The notes under the pieces are model-generated. The model did not search any database and was not told the origin of the DNA. It worked only from the letters and a program-made list of their open reading frames with translations. Of a DNA stretch of 64,000 nt, positions 3,601 to 62,624 are shown piece after piece. Each line of letters begins with the position of its first letter. Within the stretch, counting starts at the first letter, position 1. Both the position numbers and the translations under genes were made by a program. Origin of the DNA: Desulfosediminicola ganghwensis (GTDB lineage: Bacteria; Desulfobacterota; Desulfobulbia; Desulfobulbales; Desulfocapsaceae); contig NZ_CP050699.1 in NCBI RefSeq assembly GCF_005116675.2, positions 4,955,001 through 5,019,000 on the forward strand, given 5' to 3'.

Positions 3601-4632
3601 ATGACACACAAATGTTTTTCCTTGTGGTTGGCACTCACCCTGCTTTCTTTCACCTATAATGCGCAAGGGGTTGAGCCAATTCCTGATGAGTCGGGACTTA
3701 GCGGTTTTGTACGGTTAGGTGGTGGGGTAATGAACTACTCAAACAACACCATCGCAGGAAATTCATTAATGGATGTTGGCACAGACACCATATTCAATCT
3801 GGACGAAACACCAGATTCAGAAACTACAGGAATAGGGGTTTTCAACTTTGAACTTGGTTGGACATTTGCACCACAACGTACTCAGATTGTACTAGGATCA
3901 AACATCGAAGATGTGGCCCGCCTGGATTTTTCACAGCAGTTGGCGGTAAAGAAAGAGTTTGCAGACAAGAGTCTGGTCTCAGTTGGTATTCTCTTTACAG
4001 GATTTCCGACTGAGGTATATGAAGACCCCTTCCTCACCGGATCTCCCCGTCGGGAAACAGACCGCACTTCATATGGGGCACGAATCGCTTACGACAGCTT
4101 TCTGGATTCAAACTTTGAAGTTCGCTACTCATTAAGAAATATCGATATAGATGATGAGAGAAGCGGCGATTCTCTCGATCTTACTCCTCAGGAAAGATCT
4201 CTTTTACAACGTGACGGACTCAGGCACGTGTTTGACCTCAGTTACCGCTACAGGTACGACGGTAAAAATTTGTTTGTTCCTACCATATCATTTTTCTACA
4301 GTGACAGAGATGGTGATGCCATAACTCACTGGGGGACTGATTTTCAGCTTACATACATCTTCAAGGACGACCCTTTTACAGCGGTTATCAATGGCCTGAT
4401 AGGTTTTGCAGATTACGACGAAACGAACCCTGTCTTCAGCAAAAGCCAGGATGATGACCGCTACGGGATCTCCGGCCAATTTTATTATCGGCAGCCGTTT
4501 GGCCTTACACCTTTCGGCAATCAGGATTTCAGTCTGTTTTGCAACCTCTCCTATTTTCTTGTGGAGAGCAATATAGACTTTTATGAAACAGAGGTTATCC
4601 TCGCCACAGCAGGAGTCATGTTTCAATTCTAA
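3601..4632 (+). CDS. DUF2860-type outer-membrane beta-barrel protein
   Basis: 343 residues with a cleavable signal peptide (positively charged start, hydrophobic core, likely cut near NAQG/VEP at residue 24). The rest is rich in alternating amphipathic strands and ends in VMFQF, with the C-terminal Phe typical of BAM substrates. The opening GFVRLGGGVMNYSNN and the segment TEVYEDPFLTGSPRRETDR resemble DUF2860 proteins, known in Vibrio and other marine bacteria and of unknown function. Start supported by GAGGAG upstream; a terminator follows. Monocistronic. The substrate, if it is a channel, cannot be inferred. Confidence 0.75.
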   Translation: MTHKCFSLWLALTLLSFTYNAQGVEPIPDESGLSGFVRLGGGVMNYSNNTIAGNSLMDVGTDTIFNLDETPDSETTGIGVFNFELGWTFAPQRTQIVLGSNIEDVARLDFSQQLAVKKEFADKSLVSVGILFTGFPTEVYEDPFLTGSPRRETDRTSYGARIAYDSFLDSNFEVRYSLRNIDIDDERSGDSLDLTPQERSLLQRDGLRHVFDLSYRYRYDGKNLFVPTISFFYSDRDGDAITHWGTDFQLTYIFKDDPFTAVINGLIGFADYDETNPVFSKSQDDDRYGISGQFYYRQPFGLTPFGNQDFSLFCNLSYFLVESNIDFYETEVILATAGVMFQF

Positions 4633-13981: not shown

Positions 13982-15013
13982 ATGGGAATACTTTACTTTA
14001 TTGGTTTGGACATTCACAAGAAAGTGATTGCATATTGCATAAAGACAGAGGATGGCCATTTGGTTGAAACAGGGAAGATCGATGCCAGCAGAAACTCTTT
14101 GGATGAATGGGTAGACAGATTGCCGGGCCCATGGATTGGTGCCATGGAGGCAACCATTTTCACTGGCTGGATCTACGATTACCTTGCACCACATGCCGTG
14201 GGACTGAAAGTAGCACATCCAGAAATGCTGAAAGCTATCACTGCTGCCAAAAAGAAGAATGATCGCGACGACGCCGAAAAAATAACTGATCTCCTGAGGG
14301 TAAAGCTCCTTTCTGAATGTTATATGTTGCCTACTGAAATCCGCGAACTACGGCGCGTTCTTCGATATCGCACTCATGTCGTTCAAACTGCGGTAAGGAT
14401 GCAGAACAAAATGTCTGGATTGCTCATGGAGGTTGGGGCTGGATACAATAAAAAGCGACTGCATGGGAAAAAATATTTCCATAACCTCCTTGAGACATTT
14501 GATGATATCCCGGAATCAGTGAAAGAACTCCTGAAGTTGAGCCGCGCCGGTTACGAGATGTTTCATACGGCTCAGAAACATCTCACAAAGGCCTTACGCA
14601 CCAACCCCCTGATACAGGAGCGGGTACGGCGTCTAATGACAATCCAGGGAGTCGGTGAGGTGACCGCTCTGACCTGGGTACTTGAGATTGGTGACCCCAT
14701 GAGATTTCCTTCCGTTCGCAAGGCAGTCAGCTACTGCGGACTCTGCAGCGCCCAGTGCGAATCAGCAGGTAAAGAGAAACGAGGACCAATTTCTAAGAAG
14801 CGCAACAAACATTTGCAAACCACACTTGTTGAGGCGGCCAAAATTGCTCCGCGGTGGAACACGCAACTAGCTGCCATCCATGAACGGGAATTAAAAAAGG
14901 GAAACAGGAACAGGGCAACGCTTGCCGTTGCCAGAAAAATGGTAGCCTACATGATGGCTGTAGATAAAACTAAAGCCGACTTCTTGGTACCGGAGGAACA
15001 TGCAGTAGCCTAA
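13982..15013 (+). CDS. IS110 family transposase (DEDD recombinase)
   Basis: 343 residues. The N-terminal RuvC-like DEDD domain shows Asp in FIGLDIHKK, Glu in GAMEAT and DRDDAEK, matching IS110-family order. The C-terminal part has the transposase_20 region (RLMTIQGVGEVTALTWVLE, then YCGL, then the conserved Ser region). Start supported by AAGGAGG. IS110 enzymes act with an RNA guide and leave no clear inverted repeats, so element ends cannot be set here. It differs strongly from the second IS110 transposase at 26355. Confidence 0.9.
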   Translation: MGILYFIGLDIHKKVIAYCIKTEDGHLVETGKIDASRNSLDEWVDRLPGPWIGAMEATIFTGWIYDYLAPHAVGLKVAHPEMLKAITAAKKKNDRDDAEKITDLLRVKLLSECYMLPTEIRELRRVLRYRTHVVQTAVRMQNKMSGLLMEVGAGYNKKRLHGKKYFHNLLETFDDIPESVKELLKLSRAGYEMFHTAQKHLTKALRTNPLIQERVRRLMTIQGVGEVTALTWVLEIGDPMRFPSVRKAVSYCGLCSAQCESAGKEKRGPISKKRNKHLQTTLVEAAKIAPRWNTQLAAIHERELKKGNRNRATLAVARKMVAYMMAVDKTKADFLVPEEHAVA

Positions 15014-24899: not shown

Positions 24900-26111
24900 A
24901 TGAAACAGATAGACAGTAGATTTATTTTCGCAGCTCCATTTATTTTAGGTGCTGCCATGGCCACCAATGTTGATGCGGCAGGATTTCAACTCAGCGAACA
25001 CTCTGCTAACGGCCTGGGACGTGCCTATGCCGGCGAAGCAGCAACTGTGGAAAACAGCAGTGTGATTTTCAGAAATCCCGCAGCTATGAGCTATTTTGAT
25101 CGTACTGCCATCTCGGTCGGTGCCGTCTACATCAAGCCCGCAATTAACATCGACGGGGACTCTGCAATTTACGGGTCTGCCCATCAGAATGACGCAGCCA
25201 ATGGCGGCTTGTTGCCCAACCTCTCAGTGGTGCATCCCCTGAAAAATGATTGGTGGGTCGGTATTTCCTTGGGCTCGAACTTTAATACAGGTGTGGAATA
25301 TGACTCCGACTTCACAGGTTCTCATTTTGGGGATCTTGCTGAAATTACCACGGCAGACATAAACTTCAGCCTTGCCAGAAAGATCACCGACACTTTGAGT
25401 ATCGGTGCGGGATTAAGCGCTATCTGGGGAGAAGGCAGAGTGAAAAGTTCATTGCCACTATCCCTTGGTGGGGCGACTCTTCTCGACCTGGAGGGCGATG
25501 ACTGGACCTGGAACTGGAACATCGGCGCCATGTGGCAGATTAACCGGGACAACCGACTTGGAATTACCTACAAGCATCACGCGACGTTAGATCTGGAAGG
25601 AACGGCTATTTCCGAGGTAGGTTTGCCCTCGGGTAACGGTAAGCTACCGCTTGAACTACCCGCAATGGTTGAGGTTGCAAGTTTTCACCAACTTACTGAC
25701 AGGCTCGCCCTGCACTTTGGTATCAACTGGTCGAGCTGGTCCCGTTTCGAATCTCTCACCGCAGATATCGAAGGTAGCATCGTTGAAGTCAAGCGGGAAG
25801 ACTGGCAGGATACGTTTAAGTTCAGTGTTGGCACTACCTATCAACTTAATGAAGCCATCATGCTGCGTGCCGGTTTCGCGTATGATCAGCCAGCCGCAGA
25901 TGAAGAACACCGTACCATCACCATTCCCGATTCAGACAGGTTCTGGTATAGCGCAGGAATCGGTTACGCCATCAGCACCAATAGCGTAATCGATCTCGGT
26001 CTAACCTATATTCATTTCCTGGGTACTGATATCCACGAGTCATTCACTCCGCCAACGGGAAGCGGGCTTCCTGCCGATGACTTGGACGTCAGTGCCAGCG
26101 GGCATGCCTGA
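24900..26111 (+). pseudogene. fadL: FadL-like outer-membrane protein, 5' part (split by IS3)
   Basis: A FadL/TodX-type transporter for long-chain fatty acids or hydrocarbons. Signal peptide residues ~1-27, then the mature N-terminus AGFQLSEHSANGLGRAYAGE and NPAAMSYFDRTAIS (the NPA motif of the family). The barrel runs normally to SASGHA and then stops in the terminal repeat of an IS3-type element at 26109. Joining across the element and one GCC target copy gives ...SGHAWLIGAQYSYQF and a stop, a perfect FadL ending with terminal Phe. The truncated form lacks the last strand and the signal for outer-membrane assembly, so it is probably non-functional. Confidence 0.9.
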
Positions 26112-26354: not shown

Positions 26355-27413
26355 TCAAGAGGTCAAGGCGGCATCTTCCAAATCAGCCAAAATTAATGGG
26401 TACAATTCTCTGACAATATAACGTTTCAAACAACGATGTATCTCTTTCACGGATTTTCCTTCTGCAGTTCTACGAGCGACATAAACCTGGGTGCGTGGAT
26501 CACTCCTCATGCGTACCATGGCGATCGTCCAGAGAGCATTGTTTGCAGCTCGGTTACCACCTCTATTCAGGCGGTGACGGACTGTTTTCCCAGAAGATGC
26601 TTCCAAAGGGTTAACACCGCACAACGATGCAAGTGCTGATTCACTTCGTAAACGTTCAGGATTATCGCCGGCTACAGATAGCAATATGGCAGCTGTTTGA
26701 GGCCCGACACCAAACTGCTTACGCACCCGCGTAGCTGCTTTTGCAGTCAATTGTTCCAGATCTTTGTCTAATAACTTCAGTTCTTCTGTCAAGTATAACC
26801 AGCGCTTAGCAAGGAGGCGAAGTGTTGTTGCCAAGGTTTTCGACCAGTTTGTTTCACCCAAAGAACGAAGGCGTGCACAGCATTTCGCACACTCGGCAGC
26901 ATTTGATTTCCATAATCTTGATCTTATTTCATCTGGCGCAGAAATTAACAAGCCTCTTAGCTGGTTGATTGTCTGTGTCCTGGATTTAACCGTGCTACGT
27001 CGAGCAACTGAAATAATACGCATTGCTTCTGCTGCACCTGACTGTGATTTTGGAACTGCACAGTCGGTACCTGATAAAACGGTGCGGGCTGCACTCTCAG
27101 CATCTGTTGGATCAGATTTTCCACGAAATCGGCGCATTGAACGATCTGGTCGATTAATTTCCAGAACTAAAACATCCTCCGCAGCAAGATACCTGGCCAG
27201 GCCCGCACCATAAGTTCCAGTACCTTCAATCCCCGCTCTTTGCAGGTCTCCAAAAGATCGAGCCCATTTAGCTAATTGTTTATATCCTTTTGAATTAGCT
27301 GTAACTGATAAATGACCTAAAAGTTTGCCTACGCTATCAATGACGACTCCAATGTGCTGGTCCAAGTGGGTATCAACACCAAGGATTACCTCACGTGTCA
27401 GTTGGCTGCTCAT
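26355..27413 (-). CDS. IS110 family transposase (nested element)
   Basis: 352 residues. DEDD domain: Asp in ILGVDTHLDQHIG, Glu in AGIEGTGTYGAGLARYL, then KSDPTDAESAARTVLSG with the last acidic residues. C-terminal half: FGVGPQTAAILLSVAGDNPE, CGVNPLEASSGKTVRHRLNR-GGNRAANNALW, the transposase_20 region with the conserved Ser. AGGAGG lies a few bases before the ATG. The frame is intact. Ends only 12 bases inside the element's right end. Confidence 0.92.
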   Translation of the reverse strand: MSSQLTREVILGVDTHLDQHIGVVIDSVGKLLGHLSVTANSKGYKQLAKWARSFGDLQRAGIEGTGTYGAGLARYLAAEDVLVLEINRPDRSMRRFRGKSDPTDAESAARTVLSGTDCAVPKSQSGAAEAMRIISVARRSTVKSRTQTINQLRGLLISAPDEIRSRLWKSNAAECAKCCARLRSLGETNWSKTLATTLRLLAKRWLYLTEELKLLDKDLEQLTAKAATRVRKQFGVGPQTAAILLSVAGDNPERLRSESALASLCGVNPLEASSGKTVRHRLNRGGNRAANNALWTIAMVRMRSDPRTQVYVARRTAEGKSVKEIHRCLKRYIVRELYPLILADLEDAALTS

Positions 27414-27626
27414 CGACTACCTCCTAAAAGTTTAGTAGGTATCACCAGCCCGGATTACAGGACAGGACACTCAAGATGCAGGACAAAGCTCCTATTAGGT
27501 CACAAGCAATCGGCCCAGTGATGCATGGGGAACGCCAGGGCCAGCCGACAGGTCAACGCAAAGGCAATAGAGCCAATCCCAGCACGGGTCAGGCTAGCCT
27601 GACATTCAATACCACTATAACTGAGT
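27414..27626 (-). ncRNA. Non-coding left end of nested IS110, candidate bridge RNA
   Basis: 213 bases between the element end and the transposase start. It contains a perfect 16-base palindrome GTCAGGCTAGCCTGAC (27588-27603) near the outer end and further GC-rich stems. In IS110-group elements such as IS621 the non-coding left end encodes an ~180-base bridge RNA whose loops pair with donor and target DNA. The size and position fit; loop pairing with the target was not established here. Confidence 0.35.
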
Positions 27627-28304
27627 ATCCCAACAATTTCCCTTGCGACTCATGCTTTGAATATATCCATTCTGTGTTAGTACAGCCCTGAAACTGGAAC
27701 TTGCATACTGAATGCCACGATCACTATGGATCATCAAACCTGGTGCAGGCCTGCGCCTCATTATTGCTTTTTTAAGTGCATATATTGCAGATTTACTCTC
27801 CAGGGAATCGCTCAGATCCCAGCCAACAATCGCGCGAGAGAATAGATCAATAAACACTGTGAGATAATGCCATTTTGCACCGACCTTGATGTAGGTGATA
27901 TCGCTCACCCAGGCGGTGTTTGGAGCTGAAACTGAGAATTTACGATCGAGCAGATTCGACGCTACAGGTTGCTTATGTTTTGAATCGGTTGTTACTACGA
28001 ATTTCTTTGTTGTTTTGCACCTCAACCCCATTTCTTTCATTAATCGCGCAACGCGAGGCCGACTAACGCTGGAAAATTCACGCTCATCTCGCAAGTCAGC
28101 GGTAACAAGCGGGCTGCCGACCATGCCTTTATGAGCGCTAAAGATTTCCTTCACGCGCTCTTTAATCCGTATATTTTCTCGTTTTCGCGTGGAGATAGGG
28201 GCTTTCTCCCAACGATAGAAACCACTCGGGGTAACTTCTAAAGCCTGGCACATCTTCTTCACCGGAAATGCTGAGCGGTTCTTTTCAATGAATCTATATT
28301 TCAT
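27627..28304 (-). pseudogene. IS3 transposase orfB, 5' part
   Basis: Integrase catalytic domain of an IS3 orfB: HTH_21-like start (MCQALEVTPSGFYRWEKAP), then the DDE residues Asp in WVSDITYIKV and Asp in IHSDRGIQYAS, ending at GNCWD where the IS110 element enters. orfB lies in the -1 frame relative to orfA and overlaps its stop (ATGA). Confidence 0.9.
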
Positions 28305-35614: not shown

Positions 35615-36505
35615 ATGAAACTTTTACAGGCTTTCTCAGTTGTTAGCTGCAGCTTGGGCCTTTTGACTCTGACAGGTTGTGGCGGTGGCGGCAGTTCAAC
35701 CGATACAGCCAATGACATAGCCCCCCAACCTTTTTCTGAATCAGGATTATCCGCCGGATTTGATGTTGAGATAAGTGACGGTACTGTTACCGTTACAGAC
35801 CAAGGTATCAGCTCTAATTCCACAGCAGAAATTGAATATAATTCCAATGGCGATGTGCAAAGTGTGTCAGTCACCACCCCTAAGGGAACCATTGATTGGA
35901 ATGATAATTCCGGCACAATAAACCCTATCACAGATAATTCAGTGATACTTGTTTTAAGCGACGATAGATCCAAGCTGGGAGCATTTTCAGATCCATATAA
36001 TGCAGGCTTCGACTATCAGACTTTTGGTATATGGTTTAACAAAGTTGACGATTCCAACAGGTCTTTTGAGGCAATCACAATAGGTACACTAACGCCTGAC
36101 AGCGCAATCCCCTCGACAGGAAGTGCGACATTTAATGGATCAACAACTGGTTTTTATATAGATACGGGATATGACGATCCGTTTCTTACGCAAAGTGATT
36201 TGGAACTTACCGCAGATTTCGAGAATAGAAATGTAACCTTCACTACAAGTAATACTCAAAAGTACAATTTGGCCGATACTGGTGGATTCACCGATGCTTC
36301 AGACCTTGATATAACCAAAAATACCTTAAGTATTAGTGAGGGATCCAATAAATTTTCAGGGCAATTAACGACGGATAATGGACTTACAGGCGGTGCAGAA
36401 GGAAAGTTTTACGGGCCAAATGCTGAGGAAGCCGGTGGAGTTTTCTCATTGGTTAGCACATCAGGCGATTCAGGATATGTTGGTAGCTTTGGAGCAGTAA
36501 AATAA
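35615..36505 (+). CDS. Surface lipoprotein, likely Slam substrate (TbpB-like C-terminal domain)
   Basis: 296 residues. Lipoprotein signal ending LTGCGGGGSS (Cys22), with the Gly-rich tether typical of surface lipoproteins. The body is beta-rich and Ser/Thr/Asp-rich. The end GAEGKFYGPNAEEAGGVFSL and YVGSFGAVK matches the C-terminal eight-strand barrel motif of TbpB/FHbp-like proteins (G-x-F-x-GP-x-A-x-E-x-GG-x-F ... G-x-FGA-x-R/K), the part recognised by Slam translocons. A Slam gene follows after 23 bases. The ligand is unknown; no TonB receptor lies nearby. AGGGAG precedes the ATG. Confidence 0.85.
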   Translation: MKLLQAFSVVSCSLGLLTLTGCGGGGSSTDTANDIAPQPFSESGLSAGFDVEISDGTVTVTDQGISSNSTAEIEYNSNGDVQSVSVTTPKGTIDWNDNSGTINPITDNSVILVLSDDRSKLGAFSDPYNAGFDYQTFGIWFNKVDDSNRSFEAITIGTLTPDSAIPSTGSATFNGSTTGFYIDTGYDDPFLTQSDLELTADFENRNVTFTTSNTQKYNLADTGGFTDASDLDITKNTLSISEGSNKFSGQLTTDNGLTGGAEGKFYGPNAEEAGGVFSLVSTSGDSGYVGSFGAVK

Positions 36506-36528
36506 GTCAATAAATTGAAATTTGCTCT

Positions 36529-37749
36529 ATGACATTCAAAAGCCTCTTTTTTCTGGCTATGCTTTTACTGGGAAGCGGAGGCTTCTTTTTTCCAGCATCT
36601 GCTGTCGCCGCGCAAAAGGTAGTTCTCCAATCTGACGCAACAGACCCACTGCAGGTTCTCTTTGAGGTTGGTCTTGTGGAGCTCAACAAGGGGAACACCG
36701 AATCCGCAGTTCAGATATTTCAGGCCCTGGCCCAGCAATCACCAAGCCCTCGGGTTCAGCTCGAACTGGCCAGGGCTCTCTACCTGGATCACAAATACCG
36801 ATCAGCGAGAGAACTCTTTAACAGCGTACTGGACAGGCCGAACATCCCCTGGGCCGTCAGAAGAAACATTGATGTCTATCTTGATGAGATAGACTCACGA
36901 CTTGGCTTTGTACACCTCGATTTCGCCCTGGTAAGTGACAGCAACCCCTGTAATTTCACCGACAAAAAAATTATTACCATCCTGGGACAGCCCATGGAGG
37001 TTATTGAGCCTGAGAATAATGAACAAATTTGGGGAATCAATTATTCACTGAGAGCTGCCCGTGCCCATTTCGATGATAACTGGTTGGTCACATATGTAGA
37101 CGCTTTTTTTACCGATTATGAAGGAGGTGATTTCGATAGATTCGGCGCGAACGTGGGAATTCAGGTTACACCTCCAGCATTTCCTGAAATGCGATTTAAG
37201 GCAGGGCTCAATGAAAACTTCTACGCTGGTGATCATTTTTATGAATACCCATATGGAAATATCATATATTCGCCAAATAAGTTTTTAAATTACGACCTTA
37301 AATTTGACTTCGAACTAGGCTATCTCAAAGTCATAGACGCAAGTTATCTCGATGCGGTCAATACAACTCTCACAACCAGCCTTAGCACCAGAAACTTCGG
37401 GAAGATCCGCTGGACTGCGGATCTCTATCTCGAAGGTTCCCACACTGATGAAAAGGCCTATACATATTACGGGGGCTCAATAGGTGCGACTCTCTATTAC
37501 TCCATTATTGATTCCCTGGAACTCCGCCCATCGTTGTCTTTCGGCAAACGTACCTACCAGGGAACCGATCCTTTCTGGGGACAAACCCGAGACGATGATA
37601 TTATCAAGATCAGCTTTTCAATAGTTAAAAGCAACCTGCAGATATTCGGCTATACCCCTGAAGTTGGTATCGCCTATCAGGAGAACTATTCCAACATAGA
37701 TTACTACAACTACTCCAAGGTTGCGCTCATCACAAACTTCACCAGATAA
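36529..37749 (+). CDS. Slam-type surface lipoprotein assembly modifier (DUF560, type XI secretion)
   Basis: 406 residues. Signal peptide (~1-27, ...ASAVAAQ), then a TPR-like periplasmic domain (VGLVELNKGNTESAVQIFQA, LELARALYLDHKYRSARELF, VLDRPNIPWAVRRNIDVYLD), then a beta-barrel ending in VALITNFTR. This is the plan of Slam1/Slam2: TPR followed by a 14-strand barrel. Slams move TbpB-like lipoproteins to the cell surface. The neighbour upstream is a fitting substrate, so the two are probably one operon. The C-terminal residue is Arg after Phe-Thr, slightly unlike a classic terminal Phe. No strong ribosome binding site is seen. Confidence 0.87.
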   Translation: MTFKSLFFLAMLLLGSGGFFFPASAVAAQKVVLQSDATDPLQVLFEVGLVELNKGNTESAVQIFQALAQQSPSPRVQLELARALYLDHKYRSARELFNSVLDRPNIPWAVRRNIDVYLDEIDSRLGFVHLDFALVSDSNPCNFTDKKIITILGQPMEVIEPENNEQIWGINYSLRAARAHFDDNWLVTYVDAFFTDYEGGDFDRFGANVGIQVTPPAFPEMRFKAGLNENFYAGDHFYEYPYGNIIYSPNKFLNYDLKFDFELGYLKVIDASYLDAVNTTLTTSLSTRNFGKIRWTADLYLEGSHTDEKAYTYYGGSIGATLYYSIIDSLELRPSLSFGKRTYQGTDPFWGQTRDDDIIKISFSIVKSNLQIFGYTPEVGIAYQENYSNIDYYNYSKVALITNFTR

Positions 37750-37831: not shown

Positions 37832-38438
37832 TTACACAAGGTTTACCTCAGCCGGCCCGGCTGTTTTTCTGGCAAGCCCCCGGAAATCATTCAGTAGAAT
37901 GGGGTTGGATGGGTCAAAATCCCGTGCGCCCAGAATGATTTCCAGGGCCCTGCCAAGCCCGGCCTGCCGTGCCATGCGTGAAGCGCCACCGCCGCAGGGC
38001 AGAATGCCCATGCCAACCTCCATCTGCATAAACTTCGCCTTGCCGCGAGCGGCAAAACGCATATAGCAGGCCAGGGCAAATTCGTGACCGCCACCCCGCG
38101 CAAACCCCTCGATTTTGGCAATGGTGGCCTGGGGCAGTTTACTGATTCTCTCCAGCGTGGTCTGCAGATAGAGTAGCTCAACTTCTTCACGGGAGACCGC
38201 TTTGGTCGACATATCCTTCAAAAAATTTGTGTCGGCATGTGCCACGAAAATCTCAGGGTGCACAGACTGAAACACCACGACCTTGACACTGCGATCTGCC
38301 TCAAGCAGTATCGGCCAGGCGATTCAGGTCGTCAAGCATTGGAATGCCCTGAATAATTACCGGCGGATAATCAAAAGAGACGGTGAGAATTGCATCTTTT
38401 TGTTCAGCCTTGAATGTCGTAAACCCTTGGTAATTCAT
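37832..38438 (-). pseudogene. Enoyl-CoA hydratase/isomerase, frameshifted and truncated
   Basis: ATG 38438 follows GGGGAG; the frame encodes a crotonase-like start (TVSFDYPPVIIQGIPMLDDL) and stops at LADTA near 38310. The next frame continues VKVVVFQSVHPEIFVAHAD, then ATIAKIEGFARGGGHEFALA (oxyanion-hole region) and MEVGMGILPCGGGASRMARQ. After ILGARDFD the similarity ends abruptly in unrelated residues, so the C-terminal third is missing too. Two lesions make it a pseudogene. It is divergent from the HxlR gene, which may once have controlled it. Confidence 0.82.
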
Positions 38439-38677
38439 CTGCTCCCCCTTACATCTTTTTTGTGAAATATAAATAATTCAAATTTCCAGGCGACAGTTCC
38501 ACTCTGCAGATTGTTCACCCAACAAATTCAGATCATACCCAACCCTGCACCCTCCTCTGCCGAGTGAGCATAACGGTTATTTGTTGACCACATGAAGTAT
38601 AGGAAGTACATGCTTGACGTGCAAGTAGGCATAATTTAATTACGTAGTATCAAAAAACATACTATTGCGGAAAATCA

Positions 38678-61060: not shown

Positions 61061-62624
61061 GAATGGCGCTAGTTTAAGCCTTTTTTTCATATCTGCTCCG
61101 ATGCTGTATTTCGACCATTTCACTCCTAGGTTTGTTGAGTAACTGATAAGGTTTTGGTCTTCGCTTAAGACACCGCGGATCGCTTCGTCCAGGCCTGTCG
61201 AAAACTTTGCAACGAGCCACGACAAAGGATAAATCTGAGAGCATGTTTTGTCTTTCATTTGTGCTCAACCTAGAGGACCCCAACCGTGGTTCCCAACTTC
61301 TAATAGCCTGTAGACTTCCTTTGAAACTGATAGACCGGATATCAATGTCTACCAGCTGTGTCGCTTGTAACATTATGCGCCGGATGCAGTTGTACGCTAT
61401 GAAGTACATTAAAATTTCTTTCTTTATCATTTCAGGCGATTGGCACCGGAGGATATCAAATCCCATCGTTGTCTTGATATCACGAAAGAAAAGTTCGACA
61501 TCCCAACGCTTAAGGTATAACGCTGCAATTTCGTCTTTCAGGTACTGATCTTGATCGATTAGCGTGGTAACAATATGAAATTCTTTTGTTCTAAACCCTG
61601 ATTGAGTCACCTTTACTTTGATTTGTCTCATAACGAGTTTGTCGGGAAGGTCCTCCCAGGTTTTCCGCGAATACGACACCATTTCCCTGTATACTGGTTT
61701 TTTCCATTCAATCAGTAGATCATCAGGAGCGAATTCTTTAATGCAGTTTTTCCTACCGACTGGTTTTCTACGAGCAAGTGTTATCACACTATCAACACAG
61801 CGTTTTTTCAGCTCGGCTAAATCGAAGTAACTACAAAAACCTTTATCACCAAGAAAGATATCACCAGCCTCAAAGGTGGACCACTGCTTACGGAACAATG
61901 GAAGTTCGTTACTCTTTTTATTACCGATGGCATAGCTGAGCATTGTTCCGGTTTGCAATGAAAAGTATGCGCATATTCGTGCTGAGGGGAAGCCGCATCC
62001 TGGTTTCTGGTTCGATGACTGTGGCCAAAGCTCTTGATTTTCTGCTGTATCCGCCATTGTAACACCTGTCCCATCAACAACAATTACCTGGCGATCATTT
62101 AATGAATGAGATGCACGTCGTGCTCCGGACCATTTAGCAGTATGTTGAAACACCTCAACAAGCAGATTTTCATCTAATTTCTTACGTGCACAGCAATATG
62201 AAGCGGTAGATGATGATGGAAGCCGAAGGCCGTGGTTAGATGCATATGATTGCAACTTTTTTACAGCTTCTCTACATCCACCGTCTGCATCAAGGACTTG
62301 GCCTAAGAAGGACCAAAAAGTGTTTTCCTTGGTAAACAAACGTCGTCTGCTCATCTTTCCCGAAGGATCCTGTTTGAGCAATTTCGTGGGAATGAATTGC
62401 CCAAAAATCTCTCCTATCTGTTTAAAAGAGTTCTGTCTGAGGGAAGTGATTTTTCGAGCAAATTTTTGTTGTTGGCTATGAGGTTTTCTACCTCGTTTGG
62501 GAAGGTGAAAACCGGGCAACATTGGCATGATTTGGTGTTGGTTTCGCATAGCAAATTATACCAATTTTTGCCAATATATTCAGTTGCTTTTCACCTATAA
62601 AACACGCTTAAACTAGCGCCATTC
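61061..62624 (-). mobile_element. IS4-family element with 11-bp target duplication
   Basis: 1564 bp. The 19-base ends (GAATGGCGCTAGTTTAAGC, 61061-61079, inverted at 62606-62624) are perfect. The direct repeats TGGTCTGTCCC at 61050-61060 and 62625-62635 are the target duplication. Before insertion the target was AGAATCAATCG-TGGTCTGTCCC-CGATTGATTCT, an 11-bp palindrome with the duplicated 11 bases as loop. The transposase stop codon lies inside the left end. Confidence 0.92.
61074..62549 (-). CDS. IS4 family transposase
   Basis: 491 residues, intact. DDE catalytic domain of the IS4 type: Asp in VIVVDGTGVTMADT, Asp in IFLGDKGFCSYFD and Glu in LYLKRWDVELFFRDIKT (the Y-(2)-R-(3)-E-(6)-K signature). 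An N-terminal domain precedes it (FTKENTFWSFLGQVLDADGG). With perfect ends and target duplication the element may be active. Confidence 0.94.
   Translation of the reverse strand: MRNQHQIMPMLPGFHLPKRGRKPHSQQQKFARKITSLRQNSFKQIGEIFGQFIPTKLLKQDPSGKMSRRRLFTKENTFWSFLGQVLDADGGCREAVKKLQSYASNHGLRLPSSSTASYCCARKKLDENLLVEVFQHTAKWSGARRASHSLNDRQVIVVDGTGVTMADTAENQELWPQSSNQKPGCGFPSARICAYFSLQTGTMLSYAIGNKKSNELPLFRKQWSTFEAGDIFLGDKGFCSYFDLAELKKRCVDSVITLARRKPVGRKNCIKEFAPDDLLIEWKKPVYREMVSYSRKTWEDLPDKLVMRQIKVKVTQSGFRTKEFHIVTTLIDQDQYLKDEIAALYLKRWDVELFFRDIKTTMGFDILRCQSPEMIKKEILMYFIAYNCIRRIMLQATQLVDIDIRSISFKGSLQAIRSWEPRLGSSRLSTNERQNMLSDLSFVVARCKVFDRPGRSDPRCLKRRPKPYQLLNKPRSEMVEIQHRSRYEKKA

Follow-up and report, generated by a model that had tools for sequence, protein, structure and literature searches.

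A probable type XI (Slam) secretion cassette with a TbpB-fold lipoprotein in Desulfosediminicola ganghwensis

Slams, the outer-membrane translocons of type XI secretion, and the lipoproteins that they display are a known kind of system. They were reported in 2017 from every clade of Proteobacteria and also from free-living species, and a gene with a lipobox was found beside 185 of 353 Slams (PMC5449769), which overtakes the statement in a preliminary description of the DNA studied here that Slams occur mainly in Neisseria, Moraxella and their kin. According to PMC12282271, all seven type XI secretins that have been verified by experiment belong to cluster 1, which is animal-associated. For the lipoprotein NilC, a role in binding glycans during colonisation has been proposed (PMC9100927). 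The locus described here lies in a stretch of 64,000 nucleotides, below called the window, from the Desulfobacterota species Desulfosediminicola ganghwensis (assembly GCF_005116675.2, contig NZ_CP050699.1, positions 4,955,001 to 5,019,000). It consists of a gene for a lipoprotein, the cargo, followed by a gene for a Slam-like barrel protein (Table 1).

The C-terminal part of the cargo, residues 165-296, matches the family TbpB_B_D with an E-value of 5.7e-11, above the curated cut-off. Read by eye, residues 19-22 form the lipobox LTGC and GGGG follows directly after, which is the Cys-Gly4 anchor that the preliminary description had pointed out. The AlphaFold model was made from the cargo and 12 relatives (alignment A2) and has a mean predicted local distance difference test score (pLDDT) of 78.7. 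Residues 1-43 are unstructured in it, residues 44-157 form a strand-rich domain at moderate confidence (residues 41-130 have block pLDDT values of 58-80), and residues 170-295 form eight strands at high confidence, in agreement with the TbpB-like barrel claimed earlier. When the model was compared with the PDB by Foldseek, the TbpB C-lobe 5kkx came first (E 1.7e-8, 273 columns), with a template modelling (TM) score of 0.58 by target and a root mean square deviation of about 8 Å. LbpB, hemophilin, HphA, NHBA and fHbp were also among the 50 matches listed. The N-terminal domain had been suggested to be a new ligand-binding class; this is not clearly so, as in the model it looks like the small handle of a TbpB lobe, and we do not call it a new class. 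A sequence search of the PDB, with E-values up to 10, gave weak matches for both proteins of the pair, the best at 0.0019 and 0.0031.

The second protein matches Slam/SlipAM (PF04575) over residues 134-404 (E 4.8e-12), also above the cut-off. Its AlphaFold model, made from the protein and six relatives (alignment A3), has a pLDDT of 84.7. Residues 40-125 form five helices like those of tetratricopeptide repeats (TPR), and residues 126-405 form 14 long strands. Both reading frames lie where the preliminary description had placed them, the model agrees with the plan of TPR plus barrel foreseen for the second, and neither of the structural outcomes named there as refuting was obtained. BcsC was first in the Foldseek comparison with the PDB, and porins, PelB and OmpG were also among the 50 matches listed, none of which bears the name Slam; BcsC and PelB are TPR-barrel exporters and OmpG has 14 strands. 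A barrel protein of another family, DUF2860-like or BcsC/PelB-like, could export a polymer with the lipoprotein as a periplasmic accessory, and the polysaccharide exporters among the listed matches (BcsC, PelB and 4y25) as well as a DUF2860 match of 27 bits, over its cut-off of 22.9, speak for such an arrangement. We consider it quite unlikely. PF04575 scores higher (46.4 bits), the neighbour bears the TbpB_B_D barrel typical of Slam cargo, the pairing recurs in distant relatives, and none of the 34 window proteins scanned was recognised as the product of a polymer-synthesis gene. Matches to DUF2860 (20.5-35.7 bits) came from the window Slam as well as from three related Slams that were scanned, a hint that the barrels are related. 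A further DUF2860 protein lies in the window at 3601-4632 (189.6 bits).

The genome (5.65 Mb, one contig) has a single PF04575 match and two PF01298 matches, so that a chance adjacency of cargo and Slam is very unlikely. The same arrangement is found elsewhere. A search for related loci with the Slam protein alone found no relative, and a search with an alignment of the two cargoes of the genome gave 14 loci. The nearest cargoes outside the own genome belong to Pseudomonadota, namely Amphritea balenae, Thiobacillus, Paracoccaceae and Pasteurella testudinis, and the order cargo then Slam was also seen in A. balenae (two loci), in a Thiobacillus metagenome-assembled genome (MAG) and in a Paracoccaceae MAG. 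Some observations weigh against a Slam cassette. The cargo scores 38.5 bits with the NCBIfam model slam_lipo (NF041636), below its cut-off of 80, the translocon scores 31.1 bits with TPR_Slam (PF24575), below 35.2, and the identity is low, 31-38% between the cargo and the relatives compared and about 30% between the Slam and its nearest relative. Nevertheless, the curated families, the structure models and the recurrence in relatives all support the pairing of Slam and substrate proposed in the preliminary description, and we regard it as very likely that the two genes form a compact cassette for type XI (Slam) secretion. Judged from sequence and models, the cargo is most likely displayed at the surface with the help of the Slam. 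A promoter scan gave 14 sites where 7.9 were expected; the nearest upstream site on the plus strand ends 404 bp before the cargo and was not used.

Table 1. Features of the cassette, its flank and the second cargo. Positions refer to the window unless another contig or locus is named.
Feature	Position	Strand	Basis
Cargo: surface lipoprotein, 296 aa, TbpB_B_D family (PF01298)	35615..36505	+	Pfam, 43.5 bits (cut-off 26); AlphaFold model
Cargo signal peptide and lipobox (LTGC, predicted lipidated Cys22, then GGGG)	35615..35680	+	Read by eye
Cargo N-terminal handle-like domain, residues 44-157, variable part	35744..36085	+	AlphaFold: eight strands, moderate pLDDT
Cargo C-terminal eight-stranded barrel, residues 165-296, presumed Slam-targeting domain	36107..36502	+	Pfam, AlphaFold
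FYGPNAEE motif within the cargo barrel	36407-36430	+	Conserved in cargo alignment A2
Intergenic gap between cargo and Slam, 23 bp, presumed co-transcription	36506..36528	+	No terminator-like site in between
Slam: outer-membrane translocon of type XI secretion, 406 aa	36529..37749	+	PF04575, 46.4 bits (cut-off 22); AlphaFold
Predicted short TPR domain of Slam, periplasmic, five helices in residues 40-125	36646..36903	+	Pfam (TPR_Slam below its cut-off), AlphaFold
14-stranded barrel of Slam, residues 126-405	36904..37743	+	AlphaFold
Flank: decayed enoyl-CoA hydratase (ECH) remnant, truncated and interrupted	37832..38440	-	Pfam; comparison with same-genus genome
Second, unlinked TbpB_B_D lipoprotein	C1:1867571, L058:7557-8570		PF01298 match

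The lipobox, the barrel, the TPR-barrel translocon, the adjacency and a second cargo come from the sequence or the models, and the path of the cargo can be proposed from what the family does. The cargo would cross the inner membrane by Sec, be lipidated at Cys22 and be carried to the outer membrane by Lol with a Skp-like holdase; handling by Skp has been shown for TbpB (PMC9090332). The TPR domain and the 14-stranded barrel of the Slam would then recognise the eight-stranded barrel of the cargo and hand the protein to the cell surface, where the lipid would keep it anchored. The handle domain at the N-terminal end would be the variable, ligand-binding part.

The second cargo is flanked by a gene with a methyltransferase domain and an esterase-type gene (DUF676), and no Slam was found in the 16 kb fetched around it. 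Identity between the two cargoes is 47% for the barrel but 28% for the N-terminal domain. This is what one would expect if the barrel is read by one translocon and binding is left to the N-terminal domain. It is probable that the single Slam also serves this unlinked cargo. In a cargo tree with long branches, where three of 17 forks are starred, the two were joined at 80/12 only, and for this reason we take a duplication as no more than possible.

The less usual point is that a TbpB-fold lipoprotein is found in a cell where no TonB system was detected. Neither the plug (PF07715) nor the barrel (PF00593) of TonB-dependent receptors nor TonB_C (PF03544) had any match in the whole genome, and three of 14 control genomes were positive for each. 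The preliminary description was right that there is no neighbouring TonB receptor, which can now be extended genome-wide for these three families. There was no TonB receptor among the 34 window proteins scanned either. On the other side stands a FadL-type protein at 24900-26111, which touches PF00593 with 24.4 bits, under the cut-off of 27; it matches PF03349 with 353.1 bits and is not counted as a TonB-dependent receptor. The genome also has DsrA (577.9 bits, cut-off 392.85), whose best solved relative scores 698.9 bits in a comparison with dissimilatory sulfite reductases. This fits a sulfate reducer, as far as sequence can tell, and supports the earlier assignment to the Desulfobacterota.

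These absences bear on what the cargo may bind. It could capture haem, a metal or a siderophore and hand it to a TonB-dependent receptor, in the manner of TbpB or of the hemophilin type. The fold neighbours TbpB, LbpB, hemophilin and HphA would agree with such a role, and TonB receptor genes are reported in 120 of 185 Slam clusters holding a lipoprotein gene (PMC5449769). Furthermore, the pair of Pasteurella testudinis (L081) sits behind a TonB-dependent receptor. Beside the pairs of Amphritea, Thiobacillus and Paracoccaceae no receptor gene was recognised by eye, the Thiobacillus contig being only 5 kb long. Hemophilin-type hemophores have a histidine as haem ligand. The mature cargo contains no His and no Met, its sole Cys is the lipidated one, and it is acidic, with an isoelectric point of 4.05. 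The model has one barrel lobe, where TbpB and LbpB have two, and no receptor partner of the hemophilin kind was found. The lack of His and Met, together with the lack of a detected TonB-dependent receptor or TonB, argues against TbpB- or hemophore-like capture. Our confidence in nutrient capture was small from the start, was lowered further because TonB_C gave no match, and is now very low.

Most likely the cargo instead binds something without receptor-coupled import, since the genome has no TonB-dependent receptor or TonB that the searches could detect. The ligand could for instance be a glycan or a surface polymer in adhesion or cell contact, by analogy with the proposal for NilC. This is a tentative suggestion that we would sooner doubt than defend; the ligand is a guess that leans on an absence and one precedent, which must be held against it. 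The broader expectation in the preliminary description, a ligand other than the usual host proteins, gains indirect support from the missing TonB system.

The origin of the pair was approached through the distribution and phylogeny of the Slams. No PF04575 match was found in the 36 other genomes of the same family, and 11 of 21 genomes of the same order have one. The two-cargo search of 92 other genomes of the family gave no convincing cargo. Its one weak match (G490, E 3.4e-4, profile positions 37-128, outside the barrel) was put down to chance or to similarity of low-complexity sequence. A tree of 52 Slams unites the window copy with the Slam of the second Amphritea locus (L111, support 100/97) and a Burkholderiaceae Slam (L087, 100/98). 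It belongs to a group of 15 rows with high-scoring Slams of Pasteurellaceae and Neisseriaceae (98/85), apart from the Slams of the order. An approximately unbiased (AU) test rejected a placement of the window Slam among 13 Slams of the order or phylum and L112 (p 2.3e-60), and also a clade of 14 Pseudomonadota Slams that excludes the window copy (p 4.8e-4).

The flank of the pair gives a similar picture. In the matching locus of a genome of the same genus (G002), ECH, a dehydrogenase-like gene (by eye) and an HxlR-type regulator are all full-length frames, and there is no Slam pair in the 10 kb fetched. The DNA homology between this locus and the window ends at 37913, 164 bp past the stop codon of the Slam, and the dehydrogenase-like gene had no matching counterpart in the window. 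The other two genomes of the genus matched further downstream only, or in short pieces. The low GC content at third codon positions in the cargo, 0.34, was dropped as a sign of transfer, as a glycosidase in the window is similar at 0.357.

Since the Slam groups with those of Pseudomonadota and no convincing cargo was found in the 92 other family genomes, it is probable, from the sequences, that the pair was gained horizontally, from Pseudomonadota or from a shared donor. The preliminary description had anticipated neither such an origin nor the second cargo. Several points pull the other way. The tree has long branches and an arbitrary root, its Pseudomonadota rows came in through the cargo search so that the sample leans toward kin of the window copy, and the rows for the AU tests were picked after the tree had been seen. 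A Slam from Yoonia (L107) is placed outside the window group, though this position is weakly supported, and two Slams from a 'Proteobacteria' MAG, L082 and L112, stand on the side of the phylum's Slams, so that the sides are not cleanly split by taxon. These last two, and the PF04575 matches in about half of the order's genomes, would also suit a pair that was inherited vertically within the phylum and diverged beyond recognition. The tree placement and the AU tests, the absence in the family, the different architecture of the order's systems and the pair-free syntenic flank in the same genus make vertical inheritance very unlikely.

The Slam loci typical of the phylum were compared with the cassette. 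In a sample of 395 genomes of the phylum, PF04575 was found in 49 and PF01298 in 15, the window's own genome included in both. Of the 15 genomes with TbpB_B_D, 10 (again with the own genome) have both families on one contig, no more than 4 kb apart. In the remaining cases the neighbour matches PF04575 below the cut-off (L065 and L067, 16.5 and 19.5 bits, the L067 gene being in two frames), is cut by a contig end and matches only the TPR part of a home-made Slam model (L064), or is a TPR-plus-FecR frame without a barrel match (L066); L071 stops at a contig end. For a wider comparison we used 64 stretches, comprising every PF04575 place from the family, order and phylum searches except the window's own and three of the four located in genome G271, plus five found through PF01298. 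With the home-made models, a Slam-like frame was found in 60 of these. In 55 the match covers the barrel part, and in the other five (L064, L066, L067, L152, L162) it is confined to the TPR or N-terminal part. None was found in L071, L126, L150 and L164; the miss in L126 is likely a frame-calling artefact, an overlapping frame having been kept over a 47.8-bit PF04575 match.

By the same models, 34 of the 60 loci have a FecR-type frame no further than 500 bp from the Slam, and 28 have a CHASE2/cyclase-type frame at up to 6 kb. A TbpB_B_D-like partner is present in 15, and in 12 of these FecR is matched in the same protein. The models were partly built from these proteins, so that the match is built in for six of the 15 barrel partners, and many of the Slams are in the Slam model; reversed frames, used as a control, gave no matches. 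Pfam confirmed FecR and TbpB_B_D in one protein in all three such proteins scanned (L060, L067, L077), as well as CHASE2 with a cyclase in L060 and a fusion of VWA and TbpB_B_D in L064. None of the 15 partners is shorter than 400 aa, and those with a FecR domain have 495-1171 aa.

The recurrent locus of Slam, FecR and CHASE2-cyclase was seen at L059-L062, L067-L069, L073, L075, L077, L122 and others. The fusion in L064 (152-3454) is an 1100-aa protein with the VWA domain followed by TbpB_B_D at the C-terminal end, and a 1230-aa frame at L145:907-4599, beside a Slam, matches both the FecR and CHASE2/cyclase models and is possibly another fusion. In a Campylobacteraceae MAG (L090:105-2990), a barrel-type cargo end, 29% identical to residues 133-278 of the window cargo (tblastn), is followed by a CHASE2-guanylate cyclase protein (CHASE2 215.6 bits), like the phylum-typical loci. 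FecR beside CHASE2 kinases has been published for Burkholderia (PMC5192318), in a source whose available text mentions neither 'outer membrane' nor 'tetratricopeptide'. The main texts of PMC12282271 and PMC8406197 do not mention Desulfo, deltaproteobacteria, FecR or CHASE2.

Upstream of the pair are thiamine genes (ThiF, radical SAM/BATS, ThiG and two of TMP-synthase type) and downstream a molybdopterin oxidoreductase; these neighbours point to no ligand. Transposase genes are found in the window away from the pair, at 13982-15013, 26355-27413, 27615-28304 and 61074-62549. Two are of IS110 type, one has rve/HTH_21 and one DDE_Tnp_1, the latter two being presumably IS3-like and IS4-like.

Taken together, one can imagine a sulfate reducer without a TonB system in which one acquired Slam displays two TbpB-fold lipoproteins with different N-terminal domains. 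The TbpB-fold display would then be a general, receptor-independent surface-binding module, used by the anaerobe for adhesion or partner recognition, and the phylum's own Slams would export FecR-TbpB_B_D proteins that are coupled to CHASE2 cyclases as surface-exposed sensors. That all of this holds is possible, with the odds somewhat against it. Still, a pair in a genome without a detected TonB system is a clean case for the TbpB fold doing something other than receptor-coupled import, and the ligand of the cargo would show the role of such a surface module outside hosts. The comparison also exposes a different kind of Slam locus, typical of the phylum, in which FecR and a cyclase are the partners.

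The best published parallel seen is NilB/NilC of Xenorhabdus nematophila, as described in PMC9100927, likewise a Slam-family outer-membrane protein with a lipoprotein cargo, for which an interaction with glycans rather than iron piracy is proposed. The likeness is one of description, and the bacterium with NilB/NilC is, unlike here, a host-associated Gammaproteobacterium. Slam1/TbpB of Neisseria, as presented in PMC5449769 and PMC9090332, has a Slam of TPR plus 14 strands, the plan that the model suggests here, and likewise a lipoprotein with a TbpB_B_D barrel and handle. TbpB is two-lobed and works with a TonB-dependent partner, whereas the cargo has one lobe and no TonB system was found in its genome. 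The hemophilin/HphA/HrpC class (PDB 6om5 and 8glo; described in PMC8406197) shares the build of one handle and one C-terminal barrel and is among the Foldseek matches, but its members are secreted soluble haem carriers and the cargo is a lipoprotein without His. In the phylum's loci with Slam, FecR-TbpB_B_D and CHASE2 cyclase, a Slam-family barrel adjoins a protein ending in TbpB_B_D, as in the window, but the partner is long and has a FecR domain, a cyclase is the neighbour and the Slams form a separate clade. The closest pair found is the second locus of Amphritea balenae (L111, L116), where a 290-aa lipoprotein, 37.8% identical to the cargo, is followed by a 403-aa Slam with 30% identity, in a member of the Oceanospirillaceae, unlike the window host.

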